61,501 bases of DNA, from positions 1 through 61,501 of the forward strand of contig CAMVMU010000005.1 in assembly GCA_947168655.1 (NCBI GenBank), in the 5' to 3' direction. This stretch comes from an uncultured Oscillospiraceae bacterium. Lineage in GTDB: Bacteria > Bacillota > Clostridia > Oscillospirales > Oscillospiraceae. The position numbers and the translations under genes are program-made. The notes under the pieces were generated by a model. The model did not search any database. It saw only the letters and a list, made by a program, of their open reading frames with translations, and was not told where the DNA came from. This document shows, one piece after another, positions 5,481 through 40,740 of this stretch. Numbering within the stretch: position 1 is the stretch's first letter; every line of letters begins with the position of its first letter.

Positions 5481-6167
5481 TCAGTCGGCCTTGATCTCAC
5501 CGGTTGCAGTGACAACAGGCAGCTCCTGACCGGCATAGGAGCCGCGGAAGTCCCAGGATGCGCTTACGGTTGCGCCGGCGGCCAGCTGCTCCGAAGTGAG
5601 CTGGATCGTCGTCTCGCCGATCTGTGTCTCGCTCCTTACCCGATCCTCTTTCGTCAGACCGTCGGTGTGGAACCGGGAGGTCTGGGTCCCGGAGGCGGTT
5701 GTCACGGTCAGCGTGTTGCTGTCGCGCGCGTTGACGTCCAGAGCATAGCAATCCAGATAGAAGCGGAGCGTCACGGTATAGCTGCCGTCGCTGCCGCGGT
5801 TGGCCGCCCATCTGACGACCAGATTCAGAATCGTGCCGGTGTCGGAGGTAAATTCACCGGAATAATCTCCGGTGAGTTCAGCGGGCTCGGGTGCAGGTTC
5901 CGGGTCGGGCGTGGGCTCCGGCTCAGGCGTGGGTTCCGGTTCCGGTGCAGGCTCAGGTTCGGGGGCCGGTTCGGGCTCTGGATCCGGTGTGGGATCCGGC
6001 TCCGGTTCTGGTGTGGGATCCGGTGTGGGTTCAGGTTTTGTATCGTGGCCTGTCTGCTGTTCCGGATCCGGGGTTACGTCCCGTCCTCTTGTGGAGCTGA
6101 TGACAGCTATGGAGACGGCCACCACAGCCACAAGGAGCAGTGCAATAAGGGGAATAAACTTTTTCAT
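5481..6167 (-). CDS. Membrane-anchored protein with Pro-Glu stalk and C-terminal beta domain
   Basis: A 228-residue protein. It starts at [10 protein letters not shown] because AAAGGAAG lies 11 bases upstream of that ATG; a longer frame exists but has no site. Residues 4-23 form one hydrophobic segment that anchors the protein or acts as a signal. Residues 45-95 are almost pure Pro-Glu/Asp/Thr/Ala repeats, as in wall-spanning stalks. A C-terminal domain (97-228) is rich in Thr, Ser, Val and Gly and looks beta-sandwich-like. No LPxTG motif is present. Function unknown. It has its own promoter at 6242-6270 and ends at the two-way terminator. Confidence 0.75.
5883..6035 (-). repeat. Pro-Glu-rich coding repeat (PEPxPDP type)
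   Basis: Degenerate 6-bp-period repeat encoding residues 45-95 of the stalk protein, with Pro at every second position. This is low-complexity coding sequence and is prone to length change between strains. Confidence 0.85.
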
Positions 6168-6241
6168 GTTTGAATTGACTTCCTTTCGCCTATACAATCA
6201 TCCCATTGGTCAGGGATGCAAACGGTCCTTTTCTCGCTTTC

Positions 6242-6270
6242 ATTATATTCCATCTGTACCGGATTATCAA
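6242..6270 (-). promoter_or_regulatory. SigA-type promoter for the stalk protein
   Basis: Reading the minus strand: -35 TTGATA (6270-6265), a 17-bp spacer, then -10 TATAAT (6247-6242). It lies about 75 bp upstream of the start codon at 6167. Confidence 0.7.
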
Positions 6271-6338
6271 GCGTCATCTTGTGGGATACCCTGCTTTGCA
6301 CGACCCGCCCGGAAGCGGGACAGCCGGAGGCAGGCGGT

Positions 6339-6367
6339 TTGACACACGATGGCGCCCGTGATATAAT
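6339..6367 (+). promoter_or_regulatory. Consensus SigA promoter for the aldo/keto reductase
   Basis: -35 TTGACA (6339-6344), a 17-bp spacer, and -10 TATAAT (6362-6367). Both boxes match the consensus perfectly. The start codon at 6429 leaves a leader of about 55 bases. Strong constitutive expression is expected. Confidence 0.85.
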
Positions 6368-6428
6368 CAGCAGGAAATGGGCCGAAAAGCCAAAGATCGA
6401 CGATGGAACGGCCGAAGGAGGTCACACC

Positions 6429-7439
6429 ATGAAATACCAAAAGCTGGGCAATACGGACATCGATATATCTGTGGTGGCACTGGGTACCTGGGGCCTGGGC
6501 GGCGGCAGCGTCTGGTCGGACCGGGACTCCACGGCGGAGGAGGCAGGTCGGCTGCTGGACGCCTGCCTGGACCACGGCATCAATTATATTGACACCGCCC
6601 CGGTGTACGGCACCGGCGTCAGCGAGGAGCTGCTTGGCCGCGCCTTGAAGGGGCGGCGGCAGGACTTCGTCCTCCAGACCAAGTGCTCTCTCAACTGGCG
6701 GGGCGAGGGCGGCAATTTCCACTACTCCCGGGACGGCTACACCGTCAACAACGATACCCGCGCCCATGCGGTGAAGCAGGACGTGGAGGACTCCCTGCGC
6801 CGGATGGGCACCGATTATCTGGACTCGGTAATCGTCCATTACGTGTGCAAGAGCTTCCCTGTGGATGAAACGGTAGGCGCCCTGGAGGATCTGATTCGGG
6901 AGGGCAAGATTCGTACATACGGCCTTTCCAACAGCCAGCCCGGTGACCTGGACGAGTACAAGCAGAGTACCGCCCGGATCTCTGACGGCGTGTCGGTGGT
7001 GCAGGAGTTTTTCAGCATCCTGTCCCCCTTCCACGGACGGGACTATTTCCCGGTGGCGCAGAAGTACAACACGGTGTTCCAGACCTACGGCGTGCTGGAG
7101 GAGGGCTTTTTGACCTCTCCGGACTTCATGGAGCGCCGCTTTGCCAAGACCGATATCCGCTCCCGCCTGCCGTGGCTGGAGGAGGAGCGCCAAGCGGGAC
7201 TGCGCAGGGCATTCGCCATCTGGGAGCCCCTGTGCCGCGCCCACGGATGCAGCTTTGCCAATCTGGTGGAGGCCTGGGCGCTGACCCAGTACGACCGCAT
7301 GAGCCTGCTGGTGGGCATGCGCAAGCCCTCCAACGTGGCCGACACCGCCAGGTGCCTGGACATCCGGCTGAGCCCGGAGGAAGTCCGGCTCATGGAGGAG
7401 GCCGTAGCGGCCATCCAGGTGGCCGTGCTGGACAAGTGA
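6429..7439 (+). CDS. Aldo/keto reductase
   Basis: A 336-residue NADPH-dependent oxidoreductase of the TIM-barrel aldo/keto reductase superfamily. The N-terminal strand MKYQKLGNTDIDISVVALGT and the catalytic-region motif GINYIDTAPVYGTG (Asp and Tyr) are clear. The usual Lys region LQTKCSLNW and a C-terminal cofactor-binding part near VGMRKPSNV follow. The start is placed at 6429 because AAGGAGGTCACACC precedes it; the open frame continues further upstream without a site. It is monocistronic, between a perfect promoter and a two-way terminator. The substrate cannot be told from sequence; the family reduces a range of aldehydes and ketones. Confidence 0.92.
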   Translation: MKYQKLGNTDIDISVVALGTWGLGGGSVWSDRDSTAEEAGRLLDACLDHGINYIDTAPVYGTGVSEELLGRALKGRRQDFVLQTKCSLNWRGEGGNFHYSRDGYTVNNDTRAHAVKQDVEDSLRRMGTDYLDSVIVHYVCKSFPVDETVGALEDLIREGKIRTYGLSNSQPGDLDEYKQSTARISDGVSVVQEFFSILSPFHGRDYFPVAQKYNTVFQTYGVLEEGFLTSPDFMERRFAKTDIRSRLPWLEEERQAGLRRAFAIWEPLCRAHGCSFANLVEAWALTQYDRMSLLVGMRKPSNVADTARCLDIRLSPEEVRLMEEAVAAIQVAVLDK

Positions 7440-7514: not shown

Positions 7515-9626
7515 TCAGGACAGCGCATCATGCACCACGCGGTAGTAGTCCAGATCCAGCACGCCTTTGGAGAACGAGAACTTGTTGGCGACCATGTTCC
7601 GGATCTCCGCCAGATAGGCGTCATCCACCGTCTCCTCACAGCCCGGTACGACCGTGTATTCGCCTGTGGCGGCGTTATAAGTCGCCTTGTCGGTGAGCCA
7701 GCTGTAATTGGGCCAGAGAACCAGGGGCGTGGCGTCGGAGAACACGTCACGGCCTACCAGCAGGCGGGAATCGTAGGGGAGACCCATGAGGTTGGACACG
7801 GTGGGCACGATGTCCAGGCTGTACACCGGCGTATCCACTACGATGGGCTCCTCATCCTCCAGACAGCCGCTCCAGATGATCAGCGCGCTGTGGTCACGCT
7901 CCCAGGGGGTGGTGTAATCGTAGCCGTACAGATCGCCCAGCGCGTTGCGGTGGGCTGTGGAGGACTCCGATTCCAGCCCGTAGGGATAGTGGTCGGTACC
8001 CATGACAATGACGGTATCATCGGCGATGCCGGCGGCCTCCAGCCGATCAATGAGATAGGCGAGACCGCGGTCCAGCTCGATGTTGGCCGCCATATAGCCC
8101 TTAATAATCTCTGGGGCGTCCATGCCGGACACGGCATCCCGGTTTTTGGCGGACATGGAGTTGCCCATCCAGGTATAGGCCGCGTGGCCGCTGACCGTCA
8201 TATAGTAGATGCTGAAGGGCTGGCAGTTGATATACTCGTCCACGGTGGCCTCCATCAGCTCCAGATCGCTCTCCGGCCACACGTAAGTGATCCGGTCCTC
8301 CAGCCCGTTGCCGTAACCGATATACTTTTCGTACCCCAGATTCTCGTGGGTGAGGTGCCTGTCATAATAGGTGTAGGTGTGGGGATGATAGGCGCGGCTG
8401 AAATAATCCTGCCGCCGCAGCTGATTGCCCAGGGTGAAGTACATATCCATATCGGCGGTGGCCAGCATACTGGCAACGCCCTTTGTGGGGATCAAGCCCG
8501 TCATGTTGGAATATTCACCTGTGGAGGTGCTGCCGCCCCAGGCGGGCTGATAGTAGCTGTTGAAGCGGATGCCGCGGGTGTACAGCCGATACAGGGTGGG
8601 AGTCAGCTCCGGGTCAATAGCCTCCCGGCTGAAGGCCTCCGCAGAGATAAGGATCAGGTTCTTCCCGGCGAACAGACCGGTGTATTCGTTCTGACGGGAA
8701 GGAGAGAGGGAGGCTACATAGCTGTGCATATTCGCAACGGCAGCGTTGGATTCCGCACTGGCCAGAGCAGCGAAGTCCAGATCCAGGGCGTTAAAGCCGT
8801 ATTCCACCACCGGGTCCGGCTCAACGGGCTCTACCGGCTCAACGGGTTCCACCGGCTCCACCGGATCGTCTGGGGTGGTGGGATTATCCGGAACCGTGGG
8901 GTCATAGTGAAAATCGTGGGAGCCGCCACCGAACACCAGGTACTCCAGGTCCAGCCGGGTGGCGGTGCCAAGGCCGAAAGTCGTGGTGGCGTTGTCAAAT
9001 TCATAGTTGGCGCGATAGCGGATTTCATAGCTCTCGTTCAGGCGGACCAGCAGCCGGCCCGCAAGCAGAAAGACCACCGCCAGTAAGACAGCAATGATCC
9101 GCTGCCCCCCCTCATACCGGGCGAAGGAAATAACCTTGCCGCGGCGGAGGATGATCACCGCAGCCAGCGGGATCAGAAGAAGCAGCACCATAAACCACTT
9201 CCGGGCGATCAGTCCAAGGACGACGTCAAAAAAGCCGCCCACAACGCCTTTTGTCCCGGTAAAAAGCGATGCCAGGGACATGTAGTTGGAGAAAAACAGC
9301 TTGCAGAAATACTGTATGCCGAAGTAGACGGTCAGAAGGACCAGCAGTGCCGTGAAAATGGCGAAATTGGTCCGTTCGTTCCGACAGATGGTGGAGAGCA
9401 GCGTCATCACAGCGGCGCCGGAAGCGCTGAATATTGCTGCATACAACACTGTGGGCAAGGTAAGCGGTGTCCCGTTGCCCAAAAGGAGAAACAGCTCCAG
9501 ATAGACCAGAGCGAGCCAAGTCGCCAGAGGAAGAGACCAAAAGGGAATAGGACCCGGTTCTTCCTCCAAAAGCCGGCGAGGTGCCGCCTTTTTTGTTGTT
9601 TTTTCCCGTTCCAGAAGTGCATCCAT
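7515..9626 (-). CDS. LTA-synthase-like membrane sulfatase/phosphoglycerol transferase
   Basis: A 703-residue protein. The N-terminal half has about five hydrophobic helices, as in LtaS (for example FWSLPLATWLALVYLELFL and RIIAVLLAVVFLLAG). A low-complexity EPVEPVEPVEPVEP spacer precedes an extracellular alkaline-phosphatase-fold domain. That domain shows ILISAEAF, the nucleophile-Thr region GGSTSTGEYSNMTG and the metal site VIVMGTDHYPYG. The family transfers glycerol-phosphate or related groups onto glycolipid or glycans outside the membrane. The start is set at MDALLEREK, behind GGGGTGAACG. It is monocistronic. A second, divergent member of the family lies at 40741-42909. The exact substrate is unknown. 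Confidence 0.85.
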   Translation of the reverse strand: MDALLEREKTTKKAAPRRLLEEEPGPIPFWSLPLATWLALVYLELFLLLGNGTPLTLPTVLYAAIFSASGAAVMTLLSTICRNERTNFAIFTALLVLLTVYFGIQYFCKLFFSNYMSLASLFTGTKGVVGGFFDVVLGLIARKWFMVLLLLIPLAAVIILRRGKVISFARYEGGQRIIAVLLAVVFLLAGRLLVRLNESYEIRYRANYEFDNATTTFGLGTATRLDLEYLVFGGGSHDFHYDPTVPDNPTTPDDPVEPVEPVEPVEPVEPDPVVEYGFNALDLDFAALASAESNAAVANMHSYVASLSPSRQNEYTGLFAGKNLILISAEAFSREAIDPELTPTLYRLYTRGIRFNSYYQPAWGGSTSTGEYSNMTGLIPTKGVASMLATADMDMYFTLGNQLRRQDYFSRAYHPHTYTYYDRHLTHENLGYEKYIGYGNGLEDRITYVWPESDLELMEATVDEYINCQPFSIYYMTVSGHAAYTWMGNSMSAKNRDAVSGMDAPEIIKGYMAANIELDRGLAYLIDRLEAAGIADDTVIVMGTDHYPYGLESESSTAHRNALGDLYGYDYTTPWERDHSALIIWSGCLEDEEPIVVDTPVYSLDIVPTVSNLMGLPYDSRLLVGRDVFSDATPLVLWPNYSWLTDKATYNAATGEYTVVPGCEETVDDAYLAEIRNMVANKFSFSKGVLDLDYYRVVHDALS

Positions 9627-9682
9627 ATCGTTCACCCCGTTGTCTTTGTCTGATTCGCAGAAGATTACGTTCAATCCAATAT

Positions 9683-9691
9683 AGTATATCA
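9683..9691 (-). promoter_or_regulatory. Probable extended -10 promoter for the sulfatase
   Basis: On the minus strand TGATATACT gives an extended -10 (TG-n-TATACT), about 57 bp upstream of the start at 9626. No good -35 is seen, as is usual for extended -10 promoters. Confidence 0.45.
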
Positions 9692-9732
9692 CATTTTTCA
9701 GAAAAATACGAACAAAAAAAGAAAAAAAGAGA

Positions 9733-9769
9733 AAAAAAGAGACAGGCAGTATAAGCCTGTCTCTTTTTT
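9733..9769 (-). terminator. Intrinsic terminator of the minus-strand surface-protein operon
   Basis: The GC part of the stem is 9738-9747 with 9755-9764, extended by A/T pairs to 9733 and 9769. On the minus strand it is followed by long T-rich runs (complement of the A-runs at 9714-9738). The stop codon of the nucleotidyltransferase gene (9771-9769) touches the stem. Confidence 0.88.
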
Positions 9770-10977
9770 CAATTAATTATACCGTACTGCCGCAGGAGGG
9801 CGATGCGCTCCTTGCCGATGCGGAGCGTGCTGGTGGGATTGATCTCCCTGCGCTTGGCGAGATATCCCCAGATTCGCTGCGTCCAGGCAACCGGCAGCAG
9901 CCAGGGCCTACGGCGCAGATAGGTGTATCGCCCCGATAAATCCCTGGCGGGCAGAAAGATGGAGTGCAGTGCGCCACCCCGGCGTTTTCCGGTCCGGTCT
10001 GCCGCCACGGCGTCCAGTGTCAGCGTGCTGCTGTGGTGTCTGTCGATATCCTCCGCTCCATAGACCCCGCCGGAGAGAATGTCCTTCAGCAGAGGGGCGG
10101 TATCCACGTCATGGGCTGCAAACACCTCCGGCATGGAAAAGCCAAGATGCGTTTCACCGATCCGAAACAGGGCGGCGGCAAACTTGTCAACGTGAAGCTC
10201 CTGGCAGGTGGAGACGATATGATCCCAATCCAACTCGCCGCCATACTGTTGGGCAAACAGGCCCATATCGCAGATCTGCCGGATGCCCACACCGCCATGG
10301 AGAAAGTGCTTATAGGCGTGGCAGATGAGAAACAACAGGTGGTCCGTAGGCGCCAGCGTACGCAGAGATACACCCTCTACCTGTACTGTCACCGTGTGTT
10401 CCAGCGACTCGGAGAAGGGGACGTTGCAGTCGCTGTAGGCGTCAGAGTCGGTGAAAAACAGGTGTCTGTGCACCTCCAGAAAGAGGAGCCGCTCATCATT
10501 TCTGTAAGTCACCTCGTCAGCGTCGGGCGTGGGATTGCCTTCCACATAGAGACCGCAGGACACCAAGGCCTCGTGGAGGCGCGGAAAGTTCGCCTCTGAC
10601 ACAAACACGTCCTCGTCCAAGGATGAGCGCTGCTCCGGCTGGGGATACAGGGAGCGGCACACAATACCCTTTATCACCGTCGGCTGGATGCCGCGGCGTT
10701 CCAGCTCCTCATAGAGAAGCAGGAACTCCGCCGTGCGCTGGGCCTGATAGACGGTTTGATTTCTGGCCAATTCTCTCATCCAGGTGACCGTGCGAGCCGG
10801 AACAAGAGAACCAGAGCCATATATGGCTTCAACCACAAGAGGCAGCACGTTGTGAATGGAGGCAAGTCGAACCAGATTGCGCTGCTCAGCCGGCGGAACT
10901 GGTTCAGTCCATTGCACAGGTCTACCATGAATGGAGCAGCGCAAGGCGTCCAGCAGGCGTGTTTCCACCGTGCTCAT
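9769..10977 (-). CDS. Nucleotidyltransferase family protein (NTP_transf_5-like)
   Basis: A 402-residue protein resembling the uncharacterised nucleotidyltransferase family that includes PadeN of the paeninodin cluster. The diagnostic stretch is VIKGIVCRSLYPQPEQRSS followed by LDEDVFV. It corresponds to the lysine-glycine motif and acidic metal-binding residues of a minimal nucleotidyltransferase fold. A His-rich helical C-terminal half (EVHRHLFF, HAYKHFLHGG) follows. It is the last gene of the operon and starts 3 bp after the stop of the small stalk-protein gene, so it is probably translationally coupled. In known clusters this family co-occurs with PqqD and HprK-like proteins in peptide modification or polysaccharide loci. 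The substrate is unknown. Confidence 0.72.
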   Translation of the reverse strand: MSTVETRLLDALRCSIHGRPVQWTEPVPPAEQRNLVRLASIHNVLPLVVEAIYGSGSLVPARTVTWMRELARNQTVYQAQRTAEFLLLYEELERRGIQPTVIKGIVCRSLYPQPEQRSSLDEDVFVSEANFPRLHEALVSCGLYVEGNPTPDADEVTYRNDERLLFLEVHRHLFFTDSDAYSDCNVPFSESLEHTVTVQVEGVSLRTLAPTDHLLFLICHAYKHFLHGGVGIRQICDMGLFAQQYGGELDWDHIVSTCQELHVDKFAAALFRIGETHLGFSMPEVFAAHDVDTAPLLKDILSGGVYGAEDIDRHHSSTLTLDAVAADRTGKRRGGALHSIFLPARDLSGRYTYLRRRPWLLPVAWTQRIWGYLAKRREINPTSTLRIGKERIALLRQYGIIN

Positions 10978-10980
10978 TGC

Positions 10981-11295
10981 TTACAGTCCGCCGGATTCCT
11001 GGTCGTCAGGGATGGTGATCACGATATCTCCGCCATCTTCGATAATACCGGTACTGCCACCCTCCTCACCCGAATCGGGATCATCGGGGTTGCTTGGATC
11101 AGACGGATCATCGGGATTGCTTGGATCAGACGGATCATCGGGATTGCTTGGATCCGTGGGGTTCGCAGGTGTGACGTCCTCGGCGGGCGGCGTTGCGGGC
11201 TCCTCAGACTTTCGTTGAGTTACCTTCCAGATAATCGCCGCAACTGCAAGCAGCACCAGCACCAGCACTATAATCCATATTTTACTCTTCTTCAT
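10981..11295 (-). CDS. Small membrane-anchored protein with Asp-Pro-Ser-Asn repeats
   Basis: A 104-residue protein. MKKSKIWIIVLVLVLLAVAA is a single N-terminal membrane helix. The rest is an acidic extracellular tail with three near-identical DPSNPDDPS units and a C-terminal stretch IIEDGGDIVITIPDD. No enzyme motif is present. Its start overlaps the end of the PqqD gene by 14 bp and its stop lies 3 bp before the nucleotidyltransferase start, so it belongs to the coupled set. It may be a surface tether or scaffold, but this is speculation. Confidence 0.7.
   Translation of the reverse strand: MKKSKIWIIVLVLVLLAVAAIIWKVTQRKSEEPATPPAEDVTPANPTDPSNPDDPSDPSNPDDPSDPSNPDDPDSGEEGGSTGIIEDGGDIVITIPDDQESGGL
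11078..11158 (-). repeat. Three tandem 27-bp coding repeats
   Basis: Units at 11078-11104, 11105-11131 and 11132-11158. The first two differ by a single base; the third diverges only in its last bases. They encode the DPSNPDDPS repeats. Such recent tandem duplication is expected to vary in copy number between strains. Confidence 0.9.
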
Positions 11296-11590
11296 GGGTT
11301 CCTCCTTGCTCCACGGGGAGCAGATAGTTCAATTCCAGCATCTGCCGGAGAAATGATTCCACCGCCTGTCGCGCGGCAGCAGGGTCGTCGAGTTCGTATT
11401 CTTCATCCAGCGCGGCCATAAGATCGTCCAAATCGGCACCGGAAGTCAGCTGGCGCCACAAAAAGGCAGAGGTTTCATTTAATTCTGTCACATAAGGGCA
11501 GAGATTCTGTACGCTTCTGGCGGATACCAGCACGTACTCACCGCAAATGGAGGTCAGTATCACGCCGTGTCTTGTCTTATATCGAATCAT
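11282..11590 (-). CDS. PqqD-like RiPP recognition protein
   Basis: A 102-residue protein of the PqqD family, which binds leader peptides of ribosomally made, post-translationally modified peptides. It has the typical three-stranded N-terminal wing (VILTSICGEYVLVSA) and the helical part (LNETSAFLWRQLTSGADLDD, then EEYELDDPAAARQAVESFL and LLPV). ATG 11590 is chosen because AAGGAGGCAGTC precedes it. It overlaps the end of the HprK-like gene by 14 bp. No radical SAM, lasso cyclase or YcaO partner is adjacent, which is unusual. The small peptide at 12385-12681 is a candidate partner. Confidence 0.8.
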   Translation of the reverse strand: MIRYKTRHGVILTSICGEYVLVSARSVQNLCPYVTELNETSAFLWRQLTSGADLDDLMAALDEEYELDDPAAARQAVESFLRQMLELNYLLPVEQGGTHEEE

Positions 11591-12320
11591 GACTGCCTCC
11601 TTCCAACGTTTGCCGAAGAAGCTCGGTGGATGCATCGTCACCCCTGTTGGTCAGTTCCCATACAGGGGCAGTGCGCAACACGGCATCTGTCAGCGATGCG
11701 AGCCCCAGGATTTCATCCGCCGTGTCCGGCAGCAAAATAAACTGAGAGAACAGCGTGGGGATGGCGTCTGCGGCGCTAAGCCGCGAGATTGCGTTCTCCG
11801 GCCCCCGCTTCAGCAGAACGATACCAGCCAGAGGCATGGGGGGATGGTTGCGATCACCCAGATCTTCCTTGCCGTTCCAGGGGCTGGGGTGGACCCAAAC
11901 AGTCCCGTCGTCCCGCTGCTCCAGCACCGGCATATCGCCGCAGATCATGGTGATTTCACCGGGATGCAGACGCTGCCAGTTGAGAAACTGGGTGGTCTTA
12001 CCGGTGCCGCTTGGTGCGGTGAGCAGCCAGGCGCGTTCCCGCCAGCAGAAGGACACGGCGTGGAAGAAGCAGCAGCCGAAGCGGATCAGAACGTGGGAGG
12101 ACAACTCGGTCAGCGTGCGATACTCCACGTAATTGTTGCTGTAATCCGCCGGCATTGTTTCCCGCGCCTTAGCCAGCCGTTCCGGCGTTACATACACGTC
12201 GTACTCATTACCCTCTACGGGACGGGCCAATGTGCCAAAGTGGAGCCGTGTCGTGGGGAGCAGAAAGCGGCAGCGCACTGCGTGTCCGGCAAATTCGATT
12301 TGAAAGATTCGTTCTCTCAT
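11577..12320 (-). CDS. HPr-kinase-like P-loop protein
   Basis: A 247-residue protein. A Walker A loop APSGTGKTT at 102-110 is preceded by a hydrophobic strand, the arrangement of the HPr kinase/phosphorylase and PEP-carboxykinase-like fold. An acidic ICGDMPVL segment follows at the expected metal-binding distance. Homologues such as PadeK of the paeninodin cluster phosphorylate a peptide. Others sit in polysaccharide loci with PqqD and asparagine-synthetase-like genes. It starts behind CCGGAGGCGAC and overlaps the PqqD gene. It lies 64 bp after the small peptide gene, with a hairpin in between. The substrate is inferred to be the peptide or a surface-polymer component. Confidence 0.75.
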   Translation of the reverse strand: MRERIFQIEFAGHAVRCRFLLPTTRLHFGTLARPVEGNEYDVYVTPERLAKARETMPADYSNNYVEYRTLTELSSHVLIRFGCCFFHAVSFCWRERAWLLTAPSGTGKTTQFLNWQRLHPGEITMICGDMPVLEQRDDGTVWVHPSPWNGKEDLGDRNHPPMPLAGIVLLKRGPENAISRLSAADAIPTLFSQFILLPDTADEILGLASLTDAVLRTAPVWELTNRGDDASTELLRQTLEGGSHDSI

Positions 12321-12335
12321 GTCGCCTCCGGGAAG

Positions 12336-12369
12336 AAGAATAGCGTGGAGATGACCCCACGCTATTCTT
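12336..12369 (-). promoter_or_regulatory. Hairpin between the peptide gene and the kinase gene
   Basis: A perfect 13-bp stem (12336-12348 with 12357-12369) with an 8-base loop lies just after the peptide stop. The following minus-strand bases are only partly T-rich (TTCTTCC). It may be a leaky terminator or an mRNA-protecting stem that keeps the upstream peptide message in excess, a common arrangement for precursor peptides. Confidence 0.6.
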
Positions 12370-12384
12370 TGATGCGATTAGGTT

Positions 12385-12681
12385 TCAGCTAAGCCAGGAA
12401 TCGTAAAGAGGCAGCCAGGCGAGGCCGGGGTTGTACTCCAGAATCTCATCCTTGGTATAACCTGCGTCGATGCAGAAGAAGACATAGTCGGCTTCGGTTC
12501 CCACCGGATCGCCATCGTACCAATCAAACGCAGCCCATTCAGAATCCAGCCACATGGCATAGGTCAAGAAATCATCGGGTACGTGGGTACCGGTCTGATC
12601 GCTGTGGCCACCGGGCTCGCCGCCATTGCCGCCGGAGACGCCCAGCATGATGTAGGGTGCAATAAATTGTCTCTTGTTCAT
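12385..12681 (-). CDS. 98-aa peptide, candidate modified-peptide precursor
   Basis: A short acidic, aromatic protein of no recognised family. Two in-frame ATGs exist; 12681 is chosen because GGAGG lies 9 bases upstream, whereas the first ATG (12687) is only 3 bases from it. The N-terminus MNKRQFIAPYIMLGVSGG contains F6-x-x-P9-x-I11 and G14. It resembles the Y-x-x-P-x-L-x-x-x-G leader motif bound by PqqD-type recognition domains. A Gly-rich stretch (GGNGGEPGG) follows. The C-terminal two thirds hold many Trp, Tyr, Asp and Glu residues and one Cys (VFFCIDAGYTKDEIL). It sits 31 bp after the giant surface-protein gene and before the kinase-PqqD genes. Function unknown; precursor role is inference. 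Confidence 0.7.
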   Translation of the reverse strand: MNKRQFIAPYIMLGVSGGNGGEPGGHSDQTGTHVPDDFLTYAMWLDSEWAAFDWYDGDPVGTEADYVFFCIDAGYTKDEILEYNPGLAWLPLYDSWLS

Positions 12682-12712
12682 GTTCATTCACCTCCAAATC
12701 ATCTATCGCTGA

Positions 12713-15700
12713 TCAGTTACCGCTTGTCTGCGCCTGTGCGTTGAAGACCTTGATGGTGGAAGCAACGGTAGTTTGTGTCATGGTATTCGTATTGATGTTG
12801 TCCTTATTGGAAATGTCGGTGTACACACGCTCTGCGGTGCCGGTGACAATCAAGCCATCGGGGGTGACCCAATACTGGCCGACGGTCTTGTTTGTCACGC
12901 CAAGATCAACAGGATCCTGACCGTTGAGGCCGTCGTTGTAGATGGTCAGATAGCTCAGATAGCCCATGGCCTTGAAGACGTTCAGGGACGTCAGCTTGAC
13001 TTGCTTGCCGCCGTTGGTGTTGGTCACCGTCAGAGACTTCACAACGTCCTTGGCCTTGGTATTCTGGTCGGTCAGGACGAAACCGGTTTCCTGGTAGTTC
13101 AGATCGTCGGTGTCGGAGATCAGCCAAGCGGTGGAGATTACACCGGTGTACTTATCAAAGGTGTAGTACATGTAGGGCTGGAGATACTTGTTGGCGTCCA
13201 CTTCCTTGATGTAGTAGATCTCGCCGGCAACGGGGATGATATCCAGAGCGGTGTGTCCATCGTCGGTCTTGGCAATGGCGGTGGCCTTCGTCCACTTCGC
13301 GTTGTAGCCGTTATAGTGCTTGCCGGTGGCATCGGTGGTGGTGGAGATCCAGTTCTTCTCAACAAGATCCTCACGCAGATCCTGCATCTGGCCTTCGGGC
13401 TCGGGGAGGTTTGCAGCGTCCGTAACGGTATTCCAGGTGAGGTTGGCCAGGTTTGCCTTGAAGCTATCCTTGTTCCGGAAGTTCTCGGATGCGCCGGCAT
13501 ACTCGGTGTAGTAGCCGCCGTACAGGAAGCCGTCGGACGTGGTGTGGGCCAGGTCATAGGTCAGCGGGGTGTAGGTCTTCGTGCCCTCGGTATCTGTGGT
13601 TACCGTGGAGTTGTTGATGACGATCTTCTCCACAACGCCGGTGCCGGAGTGGTAGACGTAGAACACCTTGGCCCACACAGCGAACATGTCGTGGTAGGGG
13701 AGCATCTCATCGGCAGCCACTGCGGAAACTTCCTGATCTGCGGGAATCTCATTTTCCTCATCGCCGGTGCAGTAGTACTTCTGCGCATCGGGATCCCACC
13801 GCAGATACAGGTCCTCCTCCGTCAGATCGGGACGGTCAGCGGAGCTGTTGTTGGAGATCATGCGGGCCCAGCCCAGGAACACGTGATCCTCGTACACCAG
13901 GCCGGTCTTCTCCACCGTGCCGCGAGTCTCTTCCAGATAGGTGAAAGAGGTCGGGGTCGGGATGTTGACTGCCTCGTTGATTTCGAGGTTCTCATTCGAT
14001 TGGAAAGCTCCGGTGCCGTTGTTGGCGTACCAGGTGATGTGGGTCTTGGCCGTGGTGTTGGCACGGCCGTACACGGCGCGGAGGGTGACCACGTACTTGG
14101 TGGTTGCCACCTGCTTATACACCGCGTTGATGGTCAGGTTGCTTGTGACCTGATCAAACTTCTTGTCCCAGCTGTTGAAGGTGTAGCCGGCGGGAGGTGT
14201 GGGCAGGTCGGGAGCTGTGGCTCTCTGACCGTGCTGGACGGTCTGGGTGGAGGTGACCCACTCGCCTTCGCTGTTCATGTAGCGGAAGGTGACGGTGTAG
14301 CTCAGGGTACTCTGGCTCACGTACTGGGCGGTGACGGTGATATTCTCCGTGACGTTGTCGAACGCGGTGTCCCAGCCGTTGAAGATCATGCCCTGAGCGC
14401 TGTGGTCGGGCGCATCGGGGGCTGTGGCGGCGGCGCCGTCCTCCACCTGCACGTCGGCGATCTTGGTGTTGGTGTAGCCGTCCATGAAGGTGACGGTGTG
14501 CATGGTGGGACCGACCTCAATGGTGGTCTTCTTGAAGAGCTGTACCGTGCGCGCGTAGTCGGTATCATAGTCGACGTCAAAATACGTGGGGACGCCGCCG
14601 ACAGAAAGCATTGAGAGATACAGACGGTAGTAGCTGCTGTTGTAATAATGGGAAAGATAGTGCGTGCTGCTGTCCCATACCCAGGTGGCGCCATAGCCGG
14701 AGGAATAGGATGCCGGATACAGATTCAGGTTTGTGGTACTGTCATCATCACCGACACGCAGATAATTGTTCGAGTTGTAGCCGGACTGGATGCTGTATTT
14801 GCCGTTGGAGGTGGAGTTGAAGAGCCACTCCACGTGGGCAAGTGTGGCGCCGGAGATATTGGAGCTGTCGACGCCGGTCACGTTGCCGTTTTCATCCAGC
14901 ACAGCGGGGATCGCATAGCTGAGGTGATCTGTTGTGTATCCAGACAGACTTGCGCTGCCGTAGTAGGTGCCCGTGGAGGGATTGTAGCTCATCAGCAGAT
15001 AGGTCGTACCGTTGCTGGCGGTAACACCGATCAGGTAGTCCACGCCGGTCTCGATGGTGTCCACCGGGGCGTAGACCGTCATGGTCTCGGCTTTTACCGG
15101 TGTGGGGTTGACACGGCTATTGGTGAGGGCATTCTCGCCGCGCAGATAGTCGGCGAAGGTGAAGAGGGCCTCGGTGCTGTTGGCGTTGATGGCCTCTTCC
15201 ACAGCGTTGCTGTAGTCCACGGTCCAGAGCTGGCCGGGATAGGCCTTGCCAACCACGTTTTTATTCTCGTCCAGGATCTCCCAGTACAGGAACTGGAGAG
15301 TGCCGTTCTCCGGTGTGGAAGCGGGCTGACCGAATGCCTTGGCCTGGTCGGCGTAGATATTGGGGTCGTCCCAAATGTTCTTGTTGTCCGAGAACTTGCC
15401 GGTGTTGCCATTCTTATCGGTGGCCAGATACCGCACGTTGATGCCGATGACGCCGTCGGGATCCTGGCGCCAGCTGGCGTAGATGGTGAGCTTGCCCACC
15501 ACGTCGTCATGCTCGCCATCAGCGTCGTTATAGGGTCTGTTTCCGTTCCAGGGGTCACGTCCGGAGCGCTCATCGGAGGTGGCGTAGTCCATATCCATGT
15601 TCTGGATCGTGTCGGTGATGGGATTGGCGAAGTTGAAAGGAATGGTATGGGCCTTATCCAGATACCAGCCCAGCAGGGTATAGCCCTCGCGTTGGGCATT

Positions 15701-18700
15701 GCTCAAGGAGGAGCCCTGCACCACTTCGCCGTAGTCCACGCGGAAGGTGGTAGCCTGGTTGCCGTTGAAGGTGATATCACTGGGATTCACACCTTGCTCG
15801 CCGCCAGTGGGATCGCAGACCACGCGGAAGCGCATCTGGGTCCACTTAGCGTAAATGCGGACGTTGTTATCCGGCATGGTAGCGTTACTGAAGACATACG
15901 GCTCCGAAAGAGCGGAGTCGGCATACCAGCCATCGAAATAATAGCCTTCCGGAGCAGTGCTGGGCTTCACGTTGGCGAGAACCGAAAGGTCGGTCTGATA
16001 GGGAACCGCGTTCAGATCAAAGCCGGAGGGAAGCCCGGTCGGAGTAATATCACTATTATTCGAGATAAAAGTGAGCTTGTTGGTATTTCGTTTAAAGCCG
16101 ATATAAAGCGGACCCGTCTTGGCAATATAGGAAGAATAGCCCTCCGTATACAGGGCAATTTTCGTATTGACCGTTGCCGTTTGCCAACTTCCGGTTTCGC
16201 CAAACCGATAGGCTTCAACGGTATATCCCTGAACCGTCTCATTCGGCGTCCAGGAGTTTCCGGTACCATCACTGTCCACGGCGTTGGAATCACCATCCAT
16301 AAGAGGCACGGTGTATTCAGTCGAACCAAGTTCCTGACCGACGTAGTAAATATGGATCTTCGTTCCGGATTCTGCCTTGCGATAGAATATCATCTCAGTG
16401 GTCTCAGCAGAACCGGAGGAGAGAACAGGAACAAATTCCGTTACACCCAAGGGATAGCCATAAGTGGTCGTTGTGCCGCTGACGGTTTCATCGTTCTTCC
16501 ACGTATAGCCGGTGCCTGCACTCGGCCATTCGCCGGGCTTAAGCTGTGCGCCGTAAAGACCGGAGATGCTGCTGGTACCGTCCAGGTTGTGGGTGCCGGC
16601 GGCGTTGGGCGTGGGACCCTCGCCTACCTTGTAATAACCGGTAGTATAGGACTCGGTGTACAGGTAGTAGTACGGGATCCAGGAGTAGTAGCTATTGCTG
16701 CTGAACTTGTAGTACTCGTACAGCGTGCCCTGCGTGGAATAGGTATAAGTGTTGCTCGTTGAATAAGTATCCGAATTGACGCTGGTGCTTGTGCTGAAGT
16801 AAGTGTAGCCATTAGACTCAAGATACGAATCAACCTGATCCACAGTGTACGATTCGGAGTTGTAACTATACTTGTAGTAAATGGTATTGCCGCTGGAGGG
16901 ACGATACGTGGCATTGGGGCCGGTACCAATCAAATAGTAGCCGGAATCCTTTGCGGTGTAGTAGTAATATTCGCCGTTCGCAGCCTCAACGAAACCGGTG
17001 CCGCCGGTATAGGGCGTGATCTTGTCGGTGTCGTAGAAGCTAAACGTAATGGTCTTGCGGTCGTAGTACACGTTCAGCACGGTGGAGCCGTCGCCCTTGA
17101 CGGTGACGGAACCCGTGTCGGTGTTGGTCCCGTTATACAGGAAGTAGAAGCCCAGCTTGCCGTTATCGCCGTTTTCGTTGTAGCCGAGGCGGTTGTCCGC
17201 AGTGGTACCGGTGGTTGCGGTCTCAATGCTCACGGCTGTGCCGGTCTCGGCAGTACGGGAAATGGATTCATAGAAGTCGTATTCCTTATCGGCGTCAAGG
17301 GTCTGGGGGGTATCTGTGATCTTTTGGGTCCAAATGACCACATGGTAGGTGGTGTTCTTTGCCTTCCACTTGGCGTACAGCGTGGTCTCCTCACCGATAG
17401 GACTGCCGAAGATGAATCTGTCGGTGAAGTCCTCATCCTTCCACCAGCCGTCAAAGGTGTAGCCTGTGCGGGTGGGTGTGGCGGGGGCGACGGTGTTCTG
17501 ACCATCGGCATAGAACACGGGGGAGGTAAAGGAGGCGGTGGTGGCGTCGTTGTCCTGGTCGATGTAGTTGTCAAAGACCAGCCAGTGACCGGTGTTCAGA
17601 TAGGGATAGAGCTGCAGGGTGTCGCTCAGCTGATAAGTCGTATCATTCTGGTAAATGGTGCCGACATCATCTTTATACAGGGGATAGTCGCCGGCTACCT
17701 CCACCTTGTCCTCAGTGATCCAGCCGGCAAAGTTCTGACCGCCCATAAAGCCCACGTACGGATAGTTGATCTTCACGGACTCGGGGGTGCTGCCTTCGTG
17801 GATATGATAGCCCTGGGTCATCAGCACGGCCCCGGCCTGATCGTGATAGACCACGTAGCGCACGTTGTAGACCTTGGCGTAGTAGGTGAGAACGGCGGTT
17901 TTGTCCGCAGCGGCTTCCGCCTGACCATCGAGAGTATCCTTGTTCTCGTTAATATAGGCGTTGATGTCAGCCACGCTGTAGCCCGTATCCTCCTCGGTGA
18001 AGGCTTTCCTGTCAGCCCAGCCCTCGAAGCTCTGCTGCTCGTTGATGGCGGGCACGCCGGGGTCGAAGATGGGGTTCTCCACCTTACCGATCTGGTTGAT
18101 GCGGACAACCTGGACGTTGATAATGGAGTCGTCCTTGTTTCTGAACTCCACCTTCAGCAGCTTGGTGGCATTGTCGCCGCCGCCGATGACAGCATAGACG
18201 GAGAAGTTCTTGGCGTCGAAGGTGACGGTGTTGGCCTCGAACTCAGCGCCGGTGACGGGCTCGGCGTCAACGTTGTTTTCGCCCAGCTCGTCGGCATTCA
18301 GATCCAGGTGGACCACGCTCAGGTCATTGCGTCCGGCGATCTCGGCGGACTTGATGGTGACGGTGAGGTCCTTAGCGGGCTGGATCACGCCGCCGTTCTT
18401 GTCGCGGAAGGTGATGTCCACAGCCGCGAGGACAGTGCCGCTGACGCCTTCCGTCTGATCGACGGCGTCCTGTACGGCGTCCATATTATTGACCTTGACG
18501 GCCTCCATTGTAGCGCCCTGAGGCAGTGCGCCTTCCGGCGCGTCCACGGACACCAGCATACCCTCCACGTCCTCGGAAACGAGGGACACGGCGGGCATGG
18601 GTTCAACCATGGGCTTGCGGCCGCCGGAGAACCACCCGATCAGGCGGTCAAAGGCACGACCCCACAGGTCGCCCCAGCTGTCGTCGAAACCATCCAGACG

Positions 18701-18832
18701 GGGGTTCAGAGTGGTTTCGGCTCCGATGCCCCCACGGTTGGCCGGTGCGGCAAATGCCTGAACCGGGAACAGGGAAAGCATCATGACCAGTGCCAACACG
18801 ATGGAAAGCACTTTCACGGTACGCTTCTTCAT
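12713..18832 (-). CDS. Giant secreted surface protein with InlB-type B-repeats, 2039 aa
   Basis: The start is MKKRTVKVLS, behind AAAGGAGGAAGAATCA. A signal peptide ends near residue 28 (VQAFA followed by APANRGG). Many beta-grasp repeats of the Listeria-Bacteroides (InlB B-repeat) type recur, recognised by GYTFDGWWKDEDF, GYYFDGWYADSAL, YTLLGWYLDKAH, MIFNGWDTAFDNVTE and YTFNSWDKKFDQVTS, each ending in a variant of LYAKW. A Tyr/Ser-rich stretch (about nt 16620-16980) and a possible beta-trefoil-like region (YSIQSGYNSNNYLRVGDDD) lie between repeats. No LPxTG motif, C-terminal membrane helix or SLH domain is visible; the protein simply ends AQAQTSGN. Anchoring is therefore unexplained. It is the first gene of the operon that ends at 9769. 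Adhesin or matrix role inferred. Confidence 0.88.
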   Translation of the reverse strand: MKKRTVKVLSIVLALVMMLSLFPVQAFAAPANRGGIGAETTLNPRLDGFDDSWGDLWGRAFDRLIGWFSGGRKPMVEPMPAVSLVSEDVEGMLVSVDAPEGALPQGATMEAVKVNNMDAVQDAVDQTEGVSGTVLAAVDITFRDKNGGVIQPAKDLTVTIKSAEIAGRNDLSVVHLDLNADELGENNVDAEPVTGAEFEANTVTFDAKNFSVYAVIGGGDNATKLLKVEFRNKDDSIINVQVVRINQIGKVENPIFDPGVPAINEQQSFEGWADRKAFTEEDTGYSVADINAYINENKDTLDGQAEAAADKTAVLTYYAKVYNVRYVVYHDQAGAVLMTQGYHIHEGSTPESVKINYPYVGFMGGQNFAGWITEDKVEVAGDYPLYKDDVGTIYQNDTTYQLSDTLQLYPYLNTGHWLVFDNYIDQDNDATTASFTSPVFYADGQNTVAPATPTRTGYTFDGWWKDEDFTDRFIFGSPIGEETTLYAKWKAKNTTYHVVIWTQKITDTPQTLDADKEYDFYESISRTAETGTAVSIETATTGTTADNRLGYNENGDNGKLGFYFLYNGTNTDTGSVTVKGDGSTVLNVYYDRKTITFSFYDTDKITPYTGGTGFVEAANGEYYYYTAKDSGYYLIGTGPNATYRPSSGNTIYYKYSYNSESYTVDQVDSYLESNGYTYFSTSTSVNSDTYSTSNTYTYSTQGTLYEYYKFSSNSYYSWIPYYYLYTESYTTGYYKVGEGPTPNAAGTHNLDGTSSISGLYGAQLKPGEWPSAGTGYTWKNDETVSGTTTTYGYPLGVTEFVPVLSSGSAETTEMIFYRKAESGTKIHIYYVGQELGSTEYTVPLMDGDSNAVDSDGTGNSWTPNETVQGYTVEAYRFGETGSWQTATVNTKIALYTEGYSSYIAKTGPLYIGFKRNTNKLTFISNNSDITPTGLPSGFDLNAVPYQTDLSVLANVKPSTAPEGYYFDGWYADSALSEPYVFSNATMPDNNVRIYAKWTQMRFRVVCDPTGGEQGVNPSDITFNGNQATTFRVDYGEVVQGSSLSNAQREGYTLLGWYLDKAHTIPFNFANPITDTIQNMDMDYATSDERSGRDPWNGNRPYNDADGEHDDVVGKLTIYASWRQDPDGVIGINVRYLATDKNGNTGKFSDNKNIWDDPNIYADQAKAFGQPASTPENGTLQFLYWEILDENKNVVGKAYPGQLWTVDYSNAVEEAINANSTEALFTFADYLRGENALTNSRVNPTPVKAETMTVYAPVDTIETGVDYLIGVTASNGTTYLLMSYNPSTGTYYGSASLSGYTTDHLSYAIPAVLDENGNVTGVDSSNISGATLAHVEWLFNSTSNGKYSIQSGYNSNNYLRVGDDDSTTNLNLYPASYSSGYGATWVWDSSTHYLSHYYNSSYYRLYLSMLSVGGVPTYFDVDYDTDYARTVQLFKKTTIEVGPTMHTVTFMDGYTNTKIADVQVEDGAAATAPDAPDHSAQGMIFNGWDTAFDNVTENITVTAQYVSQSTLSYTVTFRYMNSEGEWVTSTQTVQHGQRATAPDLPTPPAGYTFNSWDKKFDQVTSNLTINAVYKQVATTKYVVTLRAVYGRANTTAKTHITWYANNGTGAFQSNENLEINEAVNIPTPTSFTYLEETRGTVEKTGLVYEDHVFLGWARMISNNSSADRPDLTEEDLYLRWDPDAQKYYCTGDEENEIPADQEVSAVAADEMLPYHDMFAVWAKVFYVYHSGTGVVEKIVINNSTVTTDTEGTKTYTPLTYDLAHTTSDGFLYGGYYTEYAGASENFRNKDSFKANLANLTWNTVTDAANLPEPEGQMQDLREDLVEKNWISTTTDATGKHYNGYNAKWTKATAIAKTDDGHTALDIIPVAGEIYYIKEVDANKYLQPYMYYTFDKYTGVISTAWLISDTDDLNYQETGFVLTDQNTKAKDVVKSLTVTNTNGGKQVKLTSLNVFKAMGYLSYLTIYNDGLNGQDPVDLGVTNKTVGQYWVTPDGLIVTGTAERVYTDISNKDNINTNTMTQTTVASTIKVFNAQAQTSGN

Positions 18833-18874
18833 TGATTCTTCCTCCTTTGGTTTGCATGGATAAAAACAGTTGCC

Positions 18875-18886
18875 AAACAATTGTTT
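18875..18886. promoter_or_regulatory. 12-bp palindrome in the surface-protein leader
   Basis: AAACAATTGTTT is a perfect palindrome lying about 45 bp upstream of the start codon at 18832 and downstream of the promoter. It could be an operator for a dimeric regulator. No regulator gene is present nearby to support this. Confidence 0.35.
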
Positions 18887-19313: not shown

Positions 19314-21104
19314 ATGAAAGAGAACAAAAACAATCGGGACGACAGGCCCTTTTTCGGCTCGCTGCATACCCTGCGCCAGAGGTGGCGGGAAGGCAGCTTC
19401 GGCGAGATCATCGACGACTGGCGCTGGATCTTCACCTATACCAGGCGGCACAGGGCTGCGGTGGTATTCTACACGGTGCTGGGTATCCTCAGCACTACCA
19501 CGGGGCTGGTGGCCAGCGTAGCCGGGAAACACCTGATCGACATCATAACGGGTTATCAGACCGACAAGCTGGGGCTGCTCATCGGCATCATGCTGGGCAG
19601 CGCCGGCTTCAGCCTGCTTTTTTCCAACCTGATAAACCGACTGTCCACCCGCATTGCCATTCGCATCAACAACGATATTCAGGCCGACATCTTTGACCAG
19701 ATCATCGATGTGGACTGGAAATCCATCAGTGAATACAGCAGCGGTGATCTGCTTAACCGGTTCAACAACGACGTACAGACCGTCAGCAAAAACGCCATCA
19801 GCTGGCTGCCATCCATCATCATCGCAGCGTATAACTTCATCGTCACCTTCGCTCTGATCTGGCATTACAACAGGGTCATGTCCCTGCTGGCCTTTGCCAG
19901 CGCACCGGTCATGCTGCTGATGAGCAGGTACTTTATCCACAAGCAGCGCCAGTATGCCAGAAAGGTCAAGGAGACCGGCAGCGAGATGATGGGTTTCGAG
20001 GTGGAGACTTTTTACAACTTTGACACCATCAAGTCCTTTGGCATCATGGACAGCTACGGGCGCAAGCTGCGTACCTGGCAGCAGAAGCTGCGAAGCATTA
20101 CCCTGGATTACAATCTATTCACCATCAAGACCAATGTGTTCATGTCGGTACTGGGACTCATTGTCCAGTATGCCGCCTTTGGGTACTGCCTGTTTCTGCT
20201 GTGGGGCCACCAGATCACATACGGCACCATGACGCTGTTTCTCGAGCAGCGGGTGCGGCTGTCCGGCGCTTTTAACAGCGTGGTTGGCATAGTGCCCAGC
20301 TTTCTTACCAGCTCCGTCTCCGCCCACCGCATCCGAGAGCTCATCGAGCTGCCCCGGGAGCGGCACATTCCTGAGAGTCAGCAGCTCAAGGACCTGGCGG
20401 CGGGCGGCTTCGAGGTCTGTATGGATGGCGTGAACTTTTCCTATGTGGAGGACAAGCGTGTCATCACCGAGTCCGGTTTCCGCGCCGCGCCCGGCGAGAT
20501 CGTGGCGCTGATCGGCCCCTCCGGCGGCGGCAAGACCACTATGATACGGCTGATGCTGGGTCTGGTGCGTCCTGACCGGGGACGCGCCTATCTCCGCGCC
20601 TCTGACGGCACTCAGGTAGAAATGAATGCTGACAGCAGGTGCCTGTTCTCCTACGTACCGCAGGGCAATACCATTCTCTCCGGCACCGTAGCGGACAATA
20701 TGCGCCTGGTGAAGGAGGATGCCACCGACGAGGAGATCGTGGAGGCGCTGAAGATCGCCTGCGCCTGGGATTTCGTGGGGCGCTTGCCTGACGGGATAAA
20801 CGCCAGGGTGGGCGAGCGGGGCCGCGGCTTCTCCGAGGGGCAGGCCCAACGGCTGGCCATTGCCCGTGCCGTGCTGCGGGATGCGCCGGTGCTGCTGCTG
20901 GACGAGGCCACCTCCGCCCTGGATGTGGCCACCGAGCGGCAGGTGCTGCGCAACATTGTCCAGCGGCGACCCAACAAGACCTGTATTGTCACCACCCACC
21001 GGCCTACCGTCATCGGACTTTGCCAGCGGGTCTACCGCGTGACGGACGGCATCGTTACGGAACTGGATGAGGAGACGTCCAGCCGTGCGGTGATGGATTT
21101 CTGA
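19314..21104 (+). CDS. ABC transporter, fused membrane and ATPase domains (exporter)
   Basis: A 596-residue half-transporter of the type I exporter family. About six membrane helices occupy residues 40-310 (for example AVVFYTVLGILSTTTGL). The ATPase domain has Walker A GPSGGGKTT (about 400-408), signature FSEGQAQRL (about 505), Walker B VLLLDEATSALD (about 524-536) and an H-loop TTHRPT. The start is forced: an in-frame TAA lies at 19302-19304 and no other start fits. No Shine-Dalgarno is present. It is the first gene of the polysaccharide operon and faces away from the PqqD/HprK operon. It could export a peptide, a lipid-linked unit or a surface polymer; sequence alone does not decide. Confidence 0.88.
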   Translation: MKENKNNRDDRPFFGSLHTLRQRWREGSFGEIIDDWRWIFTYTRRHRAAVVFYTVLGILSTTTGLVASVAGKHLIDIITGYQTDKLGLLIGIMLGSAGFSLLFSNLINRLSTRIAIRINNDIQADIFDQIIDVDWKSISEYSSGDLLNRFNNDVQTVSKNAISWLPSIIIAAYNFIVTFALIWHYNRVMSLLAFASAPVMLLMSRYFIHKQRQYARKVKETGSEMMGFEVETFYNFDTIKSFGIMDSYGRKLRTWQQKLRSITLDYNLFTIKTNVFMSVLGLIVQYAAFGYCLFLLWGHQITYGTMTLFLEQRVRLSGAFNSVVGIVPSFLTSSVSAHRIRELIELPRERHIPESQQLKDLAAGGFEVCMDGVNFSYVEDKRVITESGFRAAPGEIVALIGPSGGGKTTMIRLMLGLVRPDRGRAYLRASDGTQVEMNADSRCLFSYVPQGNTILSGTVADNMRLVKEDATDEEIVEALKIACAWDFVGRLPDGINARVGERGRGFSEGQAQRLAIARAVLRDAPVLLLDEATSALDVATERQVLRNIVQRRPNKTCIVTTHRPTVIGLCQRVYRVTDGIVTELDEETSSRAVMDF

Positions 21105-40693: not shown

Positions 40694-40740
40694 ACAAACA
40701 TGCAAAAGCTGACGTTCCATGAGTGAATCAGGAGGAGAAA

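Follow-up and report, generated by a model that had tools for sequence, protein, structure and literature searches.

A candidate peptide phosphorylation system next to a giant surface protein gene in an uncultured Oscillospiraceae bacterium

Linear Polyphosphorylated Peptides (LPP), described from Bacilli, are encoded with a precursor (A), an HprK-like kinase (K), a RiPP (ribosomally synthesized and post-translationally modified peptide) recognition element (RRE; B), a signal-peptidase-like protein (S), an MsbA-like exporter (D), and a nucleoside triphosphate (NTP) transferase (N); deletion of lppK removes the phosphates, which were located on core Ser3, and the discussion of that work states the biological roles of LPP as unknown (Popov et al., Nat Commun, May 2026, PMC13381572). 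In the lasso peptides paeninodin and pseudomycoidin, an HprK-like kinase phosphorylates a serine of the precursor, and PsmN is needed for a hexose on the phosphate (PMC9266682). We analyzed a stretch of 61,501 nt (hereafter the window) from an uncultured Oscillospiraceae bacterium (assembly GCA_947168655.1, contig CAMVMU010000005.1, positions 1 to 61,501), in which a gene for a 98-aa peptide lies between a gene for a giant protein and genes for an HprK-like kinase, a PqqD-type RRE, a single-transmembrane (TM) protein, and an NTP_transf_5 nucleotidyltransferase (Table 1). In our view, the locus probably encodes a variant LPP-like system for phosphorylating a peptide that is produced alongside the giant surface protein and probably works together with it.

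A first-pass annotation had reported four coupled genes with a 98-aa peptide gene upstream as a single operon, and both points were borne out: the minus-strand open reading frames (ORFs) were confirmed in place, and those from the peptide gene to the NTP_transf_5 gene form one unit. The PqqD and kinase genes overlap by 14 nt, as do the 104-aa ORF and the PqqD gene, and 3 nt separate the NTP_transf_5 gene from the 104-aa ORF. The next gene, encoding an LTA-synthase-like sulfatase (7515-9692), was not counted to the unit because an intrinsic terminator precedes it. The giant gene, the hairpin between the peptide and kinase genes, the terminator, and the exporter gene are features that the annotation had not listed. 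Its statement that no ring-forming enzyme adjoins the unit agrees with our scan, which found no radical SAM protein, B2 protease, or cyclase among the neighbors covered. Its proposal that phosphorylation and NTP transfer take the place of ring formation appears right in kind, but the system cannot be called undescribed, as the same cyclase-free enzyme set has been published as LPP (PMC13381572).

The likeness to LPP lies in a linear peptide without a cyclase, in the HprK-like kinase, discrete RRE, and NTP transferase present in both, in a candidate MsbA-like exporter, and in an aromatic-xxP leader motif, capsule genes nearby, and a precursor size of 35-200 aa. The RRE of the window matches PF05402 (E 3.7e-13) and its NTP transferase PF14907 (E 2.6e-47), both over the Pfam cut-off and each the only match in the window's own draft genome (G000, 76% complete), and no macrolactam synthetase was found among the neighbors scanned. 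On the other hand, the window differs from LPP in being clostridial, in having an extra TM protein or lipoprotein and a giant secreted-type gene directly upstream of the precursor, in having its exporter gene in a divergent unit, and in lacking an LppS-type leader peptidase in the locus, as does its clade. The kinship rests on the domain set, the gene order, the motif, and a solved RRE structure (9x8z).

Relatives were collected by kinase similarity. Of 200 family genomes sampled, 39 had a match to the window kinase at E 1e-3, and a seven-sequence kinase profile had matches in 86 of 400 family genomes at 1e-10 and in 108 of 394 order genomes at 1e-25. We fetched 80 larger stretches in addition to L031. 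Adding the window and leaving out L103, whose contig is that of L031, gave 81 mapped loci, of which 80 entered the counts, L067 standing outside them though its kinase ORF is present. The loci come mostly from the upper part of the match list and are not a random sample, and some have near-identical neighborhoods (L041/L043/L113, L038/L040, and L044/L119) and are not independent. Locus counts cover -4 to +5 kb around the kinase, and the gene maps are based on codon usage without a trained start-site model (a longest-ORF map picked shadow ORFs at high G+C). In a kinase tree of 80 rows, the window belongs to a clade of nine (window, L031-L036, L104, and L105; support 100/96), in which PqqD is present in 9/9, NTP_transf_5 in 8/9, and an LppS-like protein in 0/9. 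Over the 80 loci, PqqD was found in 46, a same-strand signal-peptidase-like protein in 34, an MsbA-type ABC exporter in 28, NTP_transf_5 in 19, and a radical SAM protein in 12. All five LPP-type enzymes occur together in eight (L042, L046, L056, L059, L064, L106, L115, and L122), with the gene order K-B-S-D-N in L056, L064, and L106, and also in L046 with one extra gene.

The 98-aa peptide, our candidate precursor, matches no Pfam or NCBIfam family. It has an FxxP leader motif (F6-I-A-P9; FIAPYIMLGVSGG), then a glycine-rich stretch with Ser16, and a helical C-terminal part rich in W, Y, and D. An ATG at 12687 would give two more residues, but the spacing to GGAGG better suits the start at 12681. 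The peptides of the window, L031, and L032 are homologs with 27-30% identity; we failed to find any other member of this family in nine clade genomes, and the window draft genome has a single copy. The L033 peptide aligns chiefly at the N terminus; for L034 and L035, only the motif and the gene position agree, the L035 motif (YYLIP) possibly being a chance occurrence. In relatives, the motif reads FSVP, FSDP, or YFKP, and a serine lies 7-9 residues past the motif proline in all four aligned peptides (window, L031, L032, and L033). Of 33 small genes located upstream of the kinase, 18 encode a [YF]xxP within the first 26 residues, versus 7 of 102 elsewhere in the loci (Fisher p 2e-8, post hoc), and a peptide of this kind lies upstream of the kinase in 21/80 loci, i.e., 18 of the 46 with PqqD and 3 of the 34 without it. 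The first-pass annotation had made its reading depend on the peptide gene being present beside homologous kinase and PqqD genes, for which the outcome is mixed: six of the nine clade loci have a [YF]xxP peptide directly upstream, none was called in L104 and L105, and L036 is cut by a contig end.

The predicted model of the peptide is poor (mean pLDDT 57; residues 1-33 below 50; blocks in 61-90 at 75-78). A disordered N-terminal third and a helical remainder, as predicted, would agree with a small folded protein carrying a modifiable tail. The C-terminal part of the L031 peptide suggested a dockerin or EF-hand by eye; no Pfam match over the cut-off was found in four relatives, and no solved relative was found, the best Foldseek match having E 3.7 on the poor model.

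Where a peptide was called, the gene directly upstream of it encodes a protein of 1186-2885 aa in 15 of 20 loci, four of the 15 being cut at the start of the stretch and hence longer. This count uses a stricter motif, omitting L034 and including L057, probably a false ORF; L034 fits the arrangement too, with a 65-aa peptide (EYLDP) directly behind a 1390-aa gene. Of the five loci without a giant directly upstream, three run into a contig end (L117, L133, and L142), and two have different neighbors (L045 and L057). In all of the 15 loci but L033 (337 nt), the giant-peptide gap is -4 to 33 nt. The 15 loci are spread over several kinase branches: the window clade; L046/L051/L053; a separate one with L064; L050/L052/L060/L068/L070; and L114. 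A gene for at least 900 aa is found within 1500 nt upstream of the kinase in 19/80 loci versus 28/846 control genes (p 8e-10). The giant linkage is nearly general where the peptide is present, unlike the capsule linkage, which is not general because capsule probes were matched in only 11/80 other loci, L031 and L032 included, and in none of L033-L036, L104, and L105 (stretches of limited length).

The window giant has a Sec-type signal peptide by eye and InlB/Flg_new repeats (PF09479) in five stretches. Its C-terminal YW[VT]TxDGxxVxG domain can be aligned across six clade giants and has only marginal matches in other giants. We failed to find an LPXTG-like end in the window giant or in any relative giant whose ends were inspected, or a Pfam anchor domain in the window giant, and whole-length scans of the window, L031, and L032 giants showed only Flg_new-type repeats. 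A word search of the main text of the LPP paper (PMC13381572) and of PMC12710340, PMC7470986, and PMC7533575, supplements excluded, gave no link to giant proteins. The tie of LPP-like peptides to giant surface proteins, as well as the missing leader-cutting enzyme, looks new.

The 67-nt gap between the peptide and kinase genes of the window holds a 15-pair stem (-27.3 kcal/mol and z -4.97 for the whole gap). We chose 16 loci with the peptide directly before the kinase, of which four with gaps below 40 nt were left unscored; runs of 10-17 consecutive pairs were found in 12/12 of the remaining gaps, compared with 52/147 other same-strand gaps of 40-130 nt. The hairpin sequences vary among loci, with a T run in some (L034) and none in others (window). 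In 14/15 loci, the space between the giant and peptide genes could not hold such a stem, so the hairpin groups the giant and peptide genes as a unit and sets the enzyme genes apart. Such an element would raise the product over enzyme levels.

Table 1. Features of the proposed unit and its surroundings in the window.
Feature	Positions	Strand	Remarks
Giant-protein gene	12713..18880	-	2055 aa; first gene of unit; 31 nt upstream of peptide start at 12681
Peptide gene, proposed precursor	12385..12681	-	98 aa
Hairpin, proposed attenuator/processing element	12336..12369	-	between peptide and kinase genes
HprK-like kinase gene (LppK/PadeK-like)	11577..12320	-	
PqqD-type discrete RRE gene	11282..11590	-	102 aa
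Single-TM protein gene	10981..11295	-	104 aa; acidic P/S/D linker; short kept C-terminal tail
NTP_transf_5 gene (LppN/PsmN-like)	9769..10977	-	
Intrinsic terminator ending unit	9732..9770	-	16-pair stem + T run
MsbA-like ABC exporter gene, candidate peptide exporter (LppD-like)	19314..21104	+	divergent from giant gene

The leader peptidase sets the window clade apart from other relatives, an LppS-like protein being present in 0/9 clade loci and in 30/37 PqqD-bearing loci outside the clade. The peptidase-like protein of the relatives has an invariant GxSMxP and HR. The archaeal-type model of signal peptidase I (E 7.7e-7) comes nearest to it, followed by SipW (E 5.2e-4), neither reaching the cut-off, and it agrees with the SpI/SipW-like LppS described for LPP. 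With a profile of 11 LppS-like sequences, the clade genomes G123, G174, and G217 showed strong copies (103-141 bits), located at other loci. Of the six other clade genomes, G000 and G004 had matches of 20-32 bits, G363 had matches of 18-38 bits, and G104, G195, and G328 had none, while the controls G061, G080, and G107, each with its own sequence in the profile, gave 188-203 bits. A leader peptidase elsewhere in the window draft genome (76% complete) was rejected, the only match there being one of 32 bits inside a 249-aa frame.

The window exporter is 80% identical to the one following NTP_transf_5 in L031 (counterpart at 19326-21101 on the plus strand), and its best-matching models are MsbA-type. 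In L031 and L032 the exporter gene is in line behind NTP_transf_5; the window copy is in a divergent unit, head to head with the giant gene, and is followed by CpsB/CapC, Wzz-type, and sugar-transferase genes. These are part of a large capsule/teichoic-type locus on the plus strand (19314-60000), in which the ORFs scanned include CpsB/CapC, two Wzz/tyrosine-kinase-like proteins, a sugar transferase, many glycosyltransferases, EpsG, Stealth, LicD, a pyruvyl transferase, a Wzt-type ABC transporter, and a second sulfatase-type gene (40723-42909). This region possibly offers phosphate-bearing polymers as partners.

The window kinase has no Pfam match and only a far sub-threshold NCBIfam match (TIGR04249, E 0.042). 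Among 37 aligned members of its family, none matches a Pfam family, and NCBIfam at E up to 0.01 recognizes 28 as ScmC, 14 as HprK_rel_A, 5 as HprK_rel_B, 2 as PEP carboxykinase, and 1 as HPr(Ser) kinase. The residues H87, Walker-A K108, and D129 are kept in 80/80 kinase loci. The HprK-like assignment that likens the locus to LPP is based on these residues and on family recognition in relatives, the window protein going unrecognized by those models. Residue 128 is G in 49/80 and D in 27/80; the H-K-D-D motif of lasso kinases (PMC9266682) would thus read H-K-G-D in the window kinase if aligned correctly. Against solved structures, a profile of seven kinases gave generic P-loop matches only, and a 37-kinase profile reached the HPr kinases 1jb1 and 1ko7 at E 0.11-0.13, behind stronger generic P-loop matches. 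SynChlorMet/HPr-rel-A systems (TIGR04249, TIGR04352, and TIGR04353) likewise combine an HprK-related protein with a PqqD-family chaperone, and relatives of the window kinase match these models; the window's own scores, however, are far under the curated cut-offs (kinase, 13.2 of 125 bits; PqqD, 19.1 of 35 bits). In L041, L043, and L113, the HprK-like kinase has neither PqqD nor peptide and lies in a conserved neighborhood with a small protein reading like NrdR (L041 and L043; the L113 map is similar), perhaps another use of the same kinase family.

A profile of seven clade PqqDs found TbiB1 (5v1u, E 1.4e-4) and the 'PqqD family protein' 9x8z (E 2.6e-4), which we tentatively take to be LppB. 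In L033, the NTP_transf_5 gene (6107-7369) falls into two ORFs, owing either to an assembly error or to decay. L034 is the only clade locus without NTP_transf_5; its PqqD gene is followed by a gene for a 235-aa protein (6249-6956), homing-endonuclease/AP2-like by eye and related to a 288-aa ORF of L035, which is possibly an insertion.

The 104-aa TM protein has 22-44% identity to counterparts in L031, L032, L033, and L035, which are TM proteins or lipoproteins; a profile of the five found no close homolog besides themselves. The gene lies behind PqqD in the window, L031, L032, and L033 and behind NTP_transf_5 in L035, i.e., in five of the six giant-bearing clade loci, and was not called in L034, L036, L104, and L105. 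Near the kinases of L045, L114, L127, L133, L138, and L139 we saw small lipoproteins or TM proteins whose tails are acidic and of low complexity, without clear homology to that of the window; in L138, a secreted protein of 101 aa is encoded as well, in which EF-hand loops resembling those of dockerins were noted by eye. A secreted protein that looks SLH-like by eye (in L046, it has no Pfam match) is encoded behind PqqD in L046 (7083-8087) and L053 (7342-8322) and between peptide and kinase in L051 (6898-7683), and perhaps plays the role of the window's TM protein.

A further arrangement was found in L050, L052, L060, L068, and L070, where a giant protein gene is followed by one for an 85-93-aa peptide with several cysteines (MKK.Y..P....E.F.L...IA..C) and then by the HprK-like kinase gene. 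A radical SAM protein is encoded near three of them (L052, L060, and L070, not L050 or L068), and the kinase branch that includes these loci has a radical SAM gene in 6/10 rows. It looks like a radical-SAM-linked relative of the giant-peptide-kinase arrangement.

We infer the following pathway, its enzymatic and export steps by analogy with LPP and lasso relatives. The giant and peptide genes would be co-transcribed, with the hairpin partly separating them from the enzyme genes, so that product exceeds enzymes. PqqD would bind the FxxP leader of the 98-aa peptide, as RREs of LPP and lasso peptides do, and the HprK-like kinase would phosphorylate a serine near the leader, most likely Ser16. NTP_transf_5 may then put a sugar or nucleotidyl group on the phosphate, by analogy with PsmN of pseudomycoidin, and the MsbA-like exporter at 19.3-21.1 kb may export the peptide. 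Without LppS, the leader would be retained or removed by a general peptidase. The decorated peptide and the small TM protein or lipoprotein might finally help to hold or organize the giant at the envelope, which is the least certain step.

Several points weigh against this interpretation. No peptide was called in 59/80 kinase loci, the clade members L104 and L105 among them. The statistics are post hoc and the loci related, so the p values are descriptive. The published LPP leader YxxPxVLxHQxIxFETxxS is missing in the window peptide, only the aromatic-xxP being shared; moreover, the window leader has F, whereas the published RREs prefer Y or W, and in the published LPP work deletion of lppN had no visible effect (PMC13381572). 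The kinase fold is presumptive: profile matches to HPr kinases are weak, and an AlphaFold model from two sequences (pLDDT 32) was useless and was not used. The exporter, sitting with capsule genes (CpsB and Wzz), may serve the capsule.

Other explanations account for parts of the same data. It is unlikely, though worth weighing first, that the enzymes in fact act on the small TM protein or lipoprotein, phosphorylating and decorating its acidic tail, with the 98-aa peptide serving only as an adaptor or being the giant's unrelated partner. Its gene overlaps that of PqqD, counterparts with similar tails are present in four clade loci, and small acidic-tailed proteins recur near the kinase in L045, L114, L127, L133, and L138; but its N terminus has no [YF]xxP, its tail has few Ser/Thr, it was not called in four clade loci, and it is the 98-aa peptide that shows the precursor-type traits, namely the motif and a hairpin following its gene. 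Slightly less likely is modification of the giant protein or a capsule precursor by the kinase and NTP_transf_5, with the peptide regulating the pair. The giant gene is in the same unit, and the window, L031, and L032 loci are beside capsule genes. However, with its Sec-type signal peptide the giant would leave the cytoplasm in an unfolded state, peptide leaders are what discrete PqqD/RRE proteins bind, and capsule matches are sparse, as described above.

We doubt strongly that the peptide ORF belongs with the giant alone and is a chance neighbor of PqqD and the kinase. The hairpin does separate peptide from kinase, and the peptides diverge strongly, even near relatives sharing only the low identity given above; yet the motif enrichment holds across several kinase branches, and the peptide keeps the same place in six giant-bearing clade loci. 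Least credible is a degenerate or split paeninodin-type lasso cluster with cyclase and B2 protease elsewhere, for although the first-pass annotation rightly saw kinship to the paeninodin cluster, and an HprK-like kinase, an NTP transferase, and a PqqD-type RRE belong to the tailoring genes of paeninodin and pseudomycoidin (PMC9266682), and one Transglut_core3 match over the cut-off in clade genome G123 and full-length Asn_synthase matches in G174 and G195 were found, the window draft genome (76% complete) has no Transglut_core3/B2 match at E 1e-3 and no full-length Asn_synthase (two partial matches of 50 and 22 bits, both over a low cut-off), the modified serine of those peptides is C-terminal, their leader motif is WxxP against F/Y here, and the full-set relatives L046, L056, L064, and L106 are in LPP order.

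If the locus is an LPP-like system, as we favor, RRE-guided phosphopeptides might be obligate co-transcribed partners of giant secreted repeat proteins that tether or organize them on the envelope for surface display, a suggestion we offer only tentatively. Were it true, LPP-type peptides in these Clostridia would equip giant surface proteins and would not be free small molecules, and in the window clade the LPP, elsewhere a cleaved peptide, would have become a small protein that is left uncut. A clade without LppS would bear on whether leader cleavage is dispensable, and the giant linkage, together with the hairpin before the kinase gene, gives LPP-type peptides a concrete candidate partner, making the question of their role testable.

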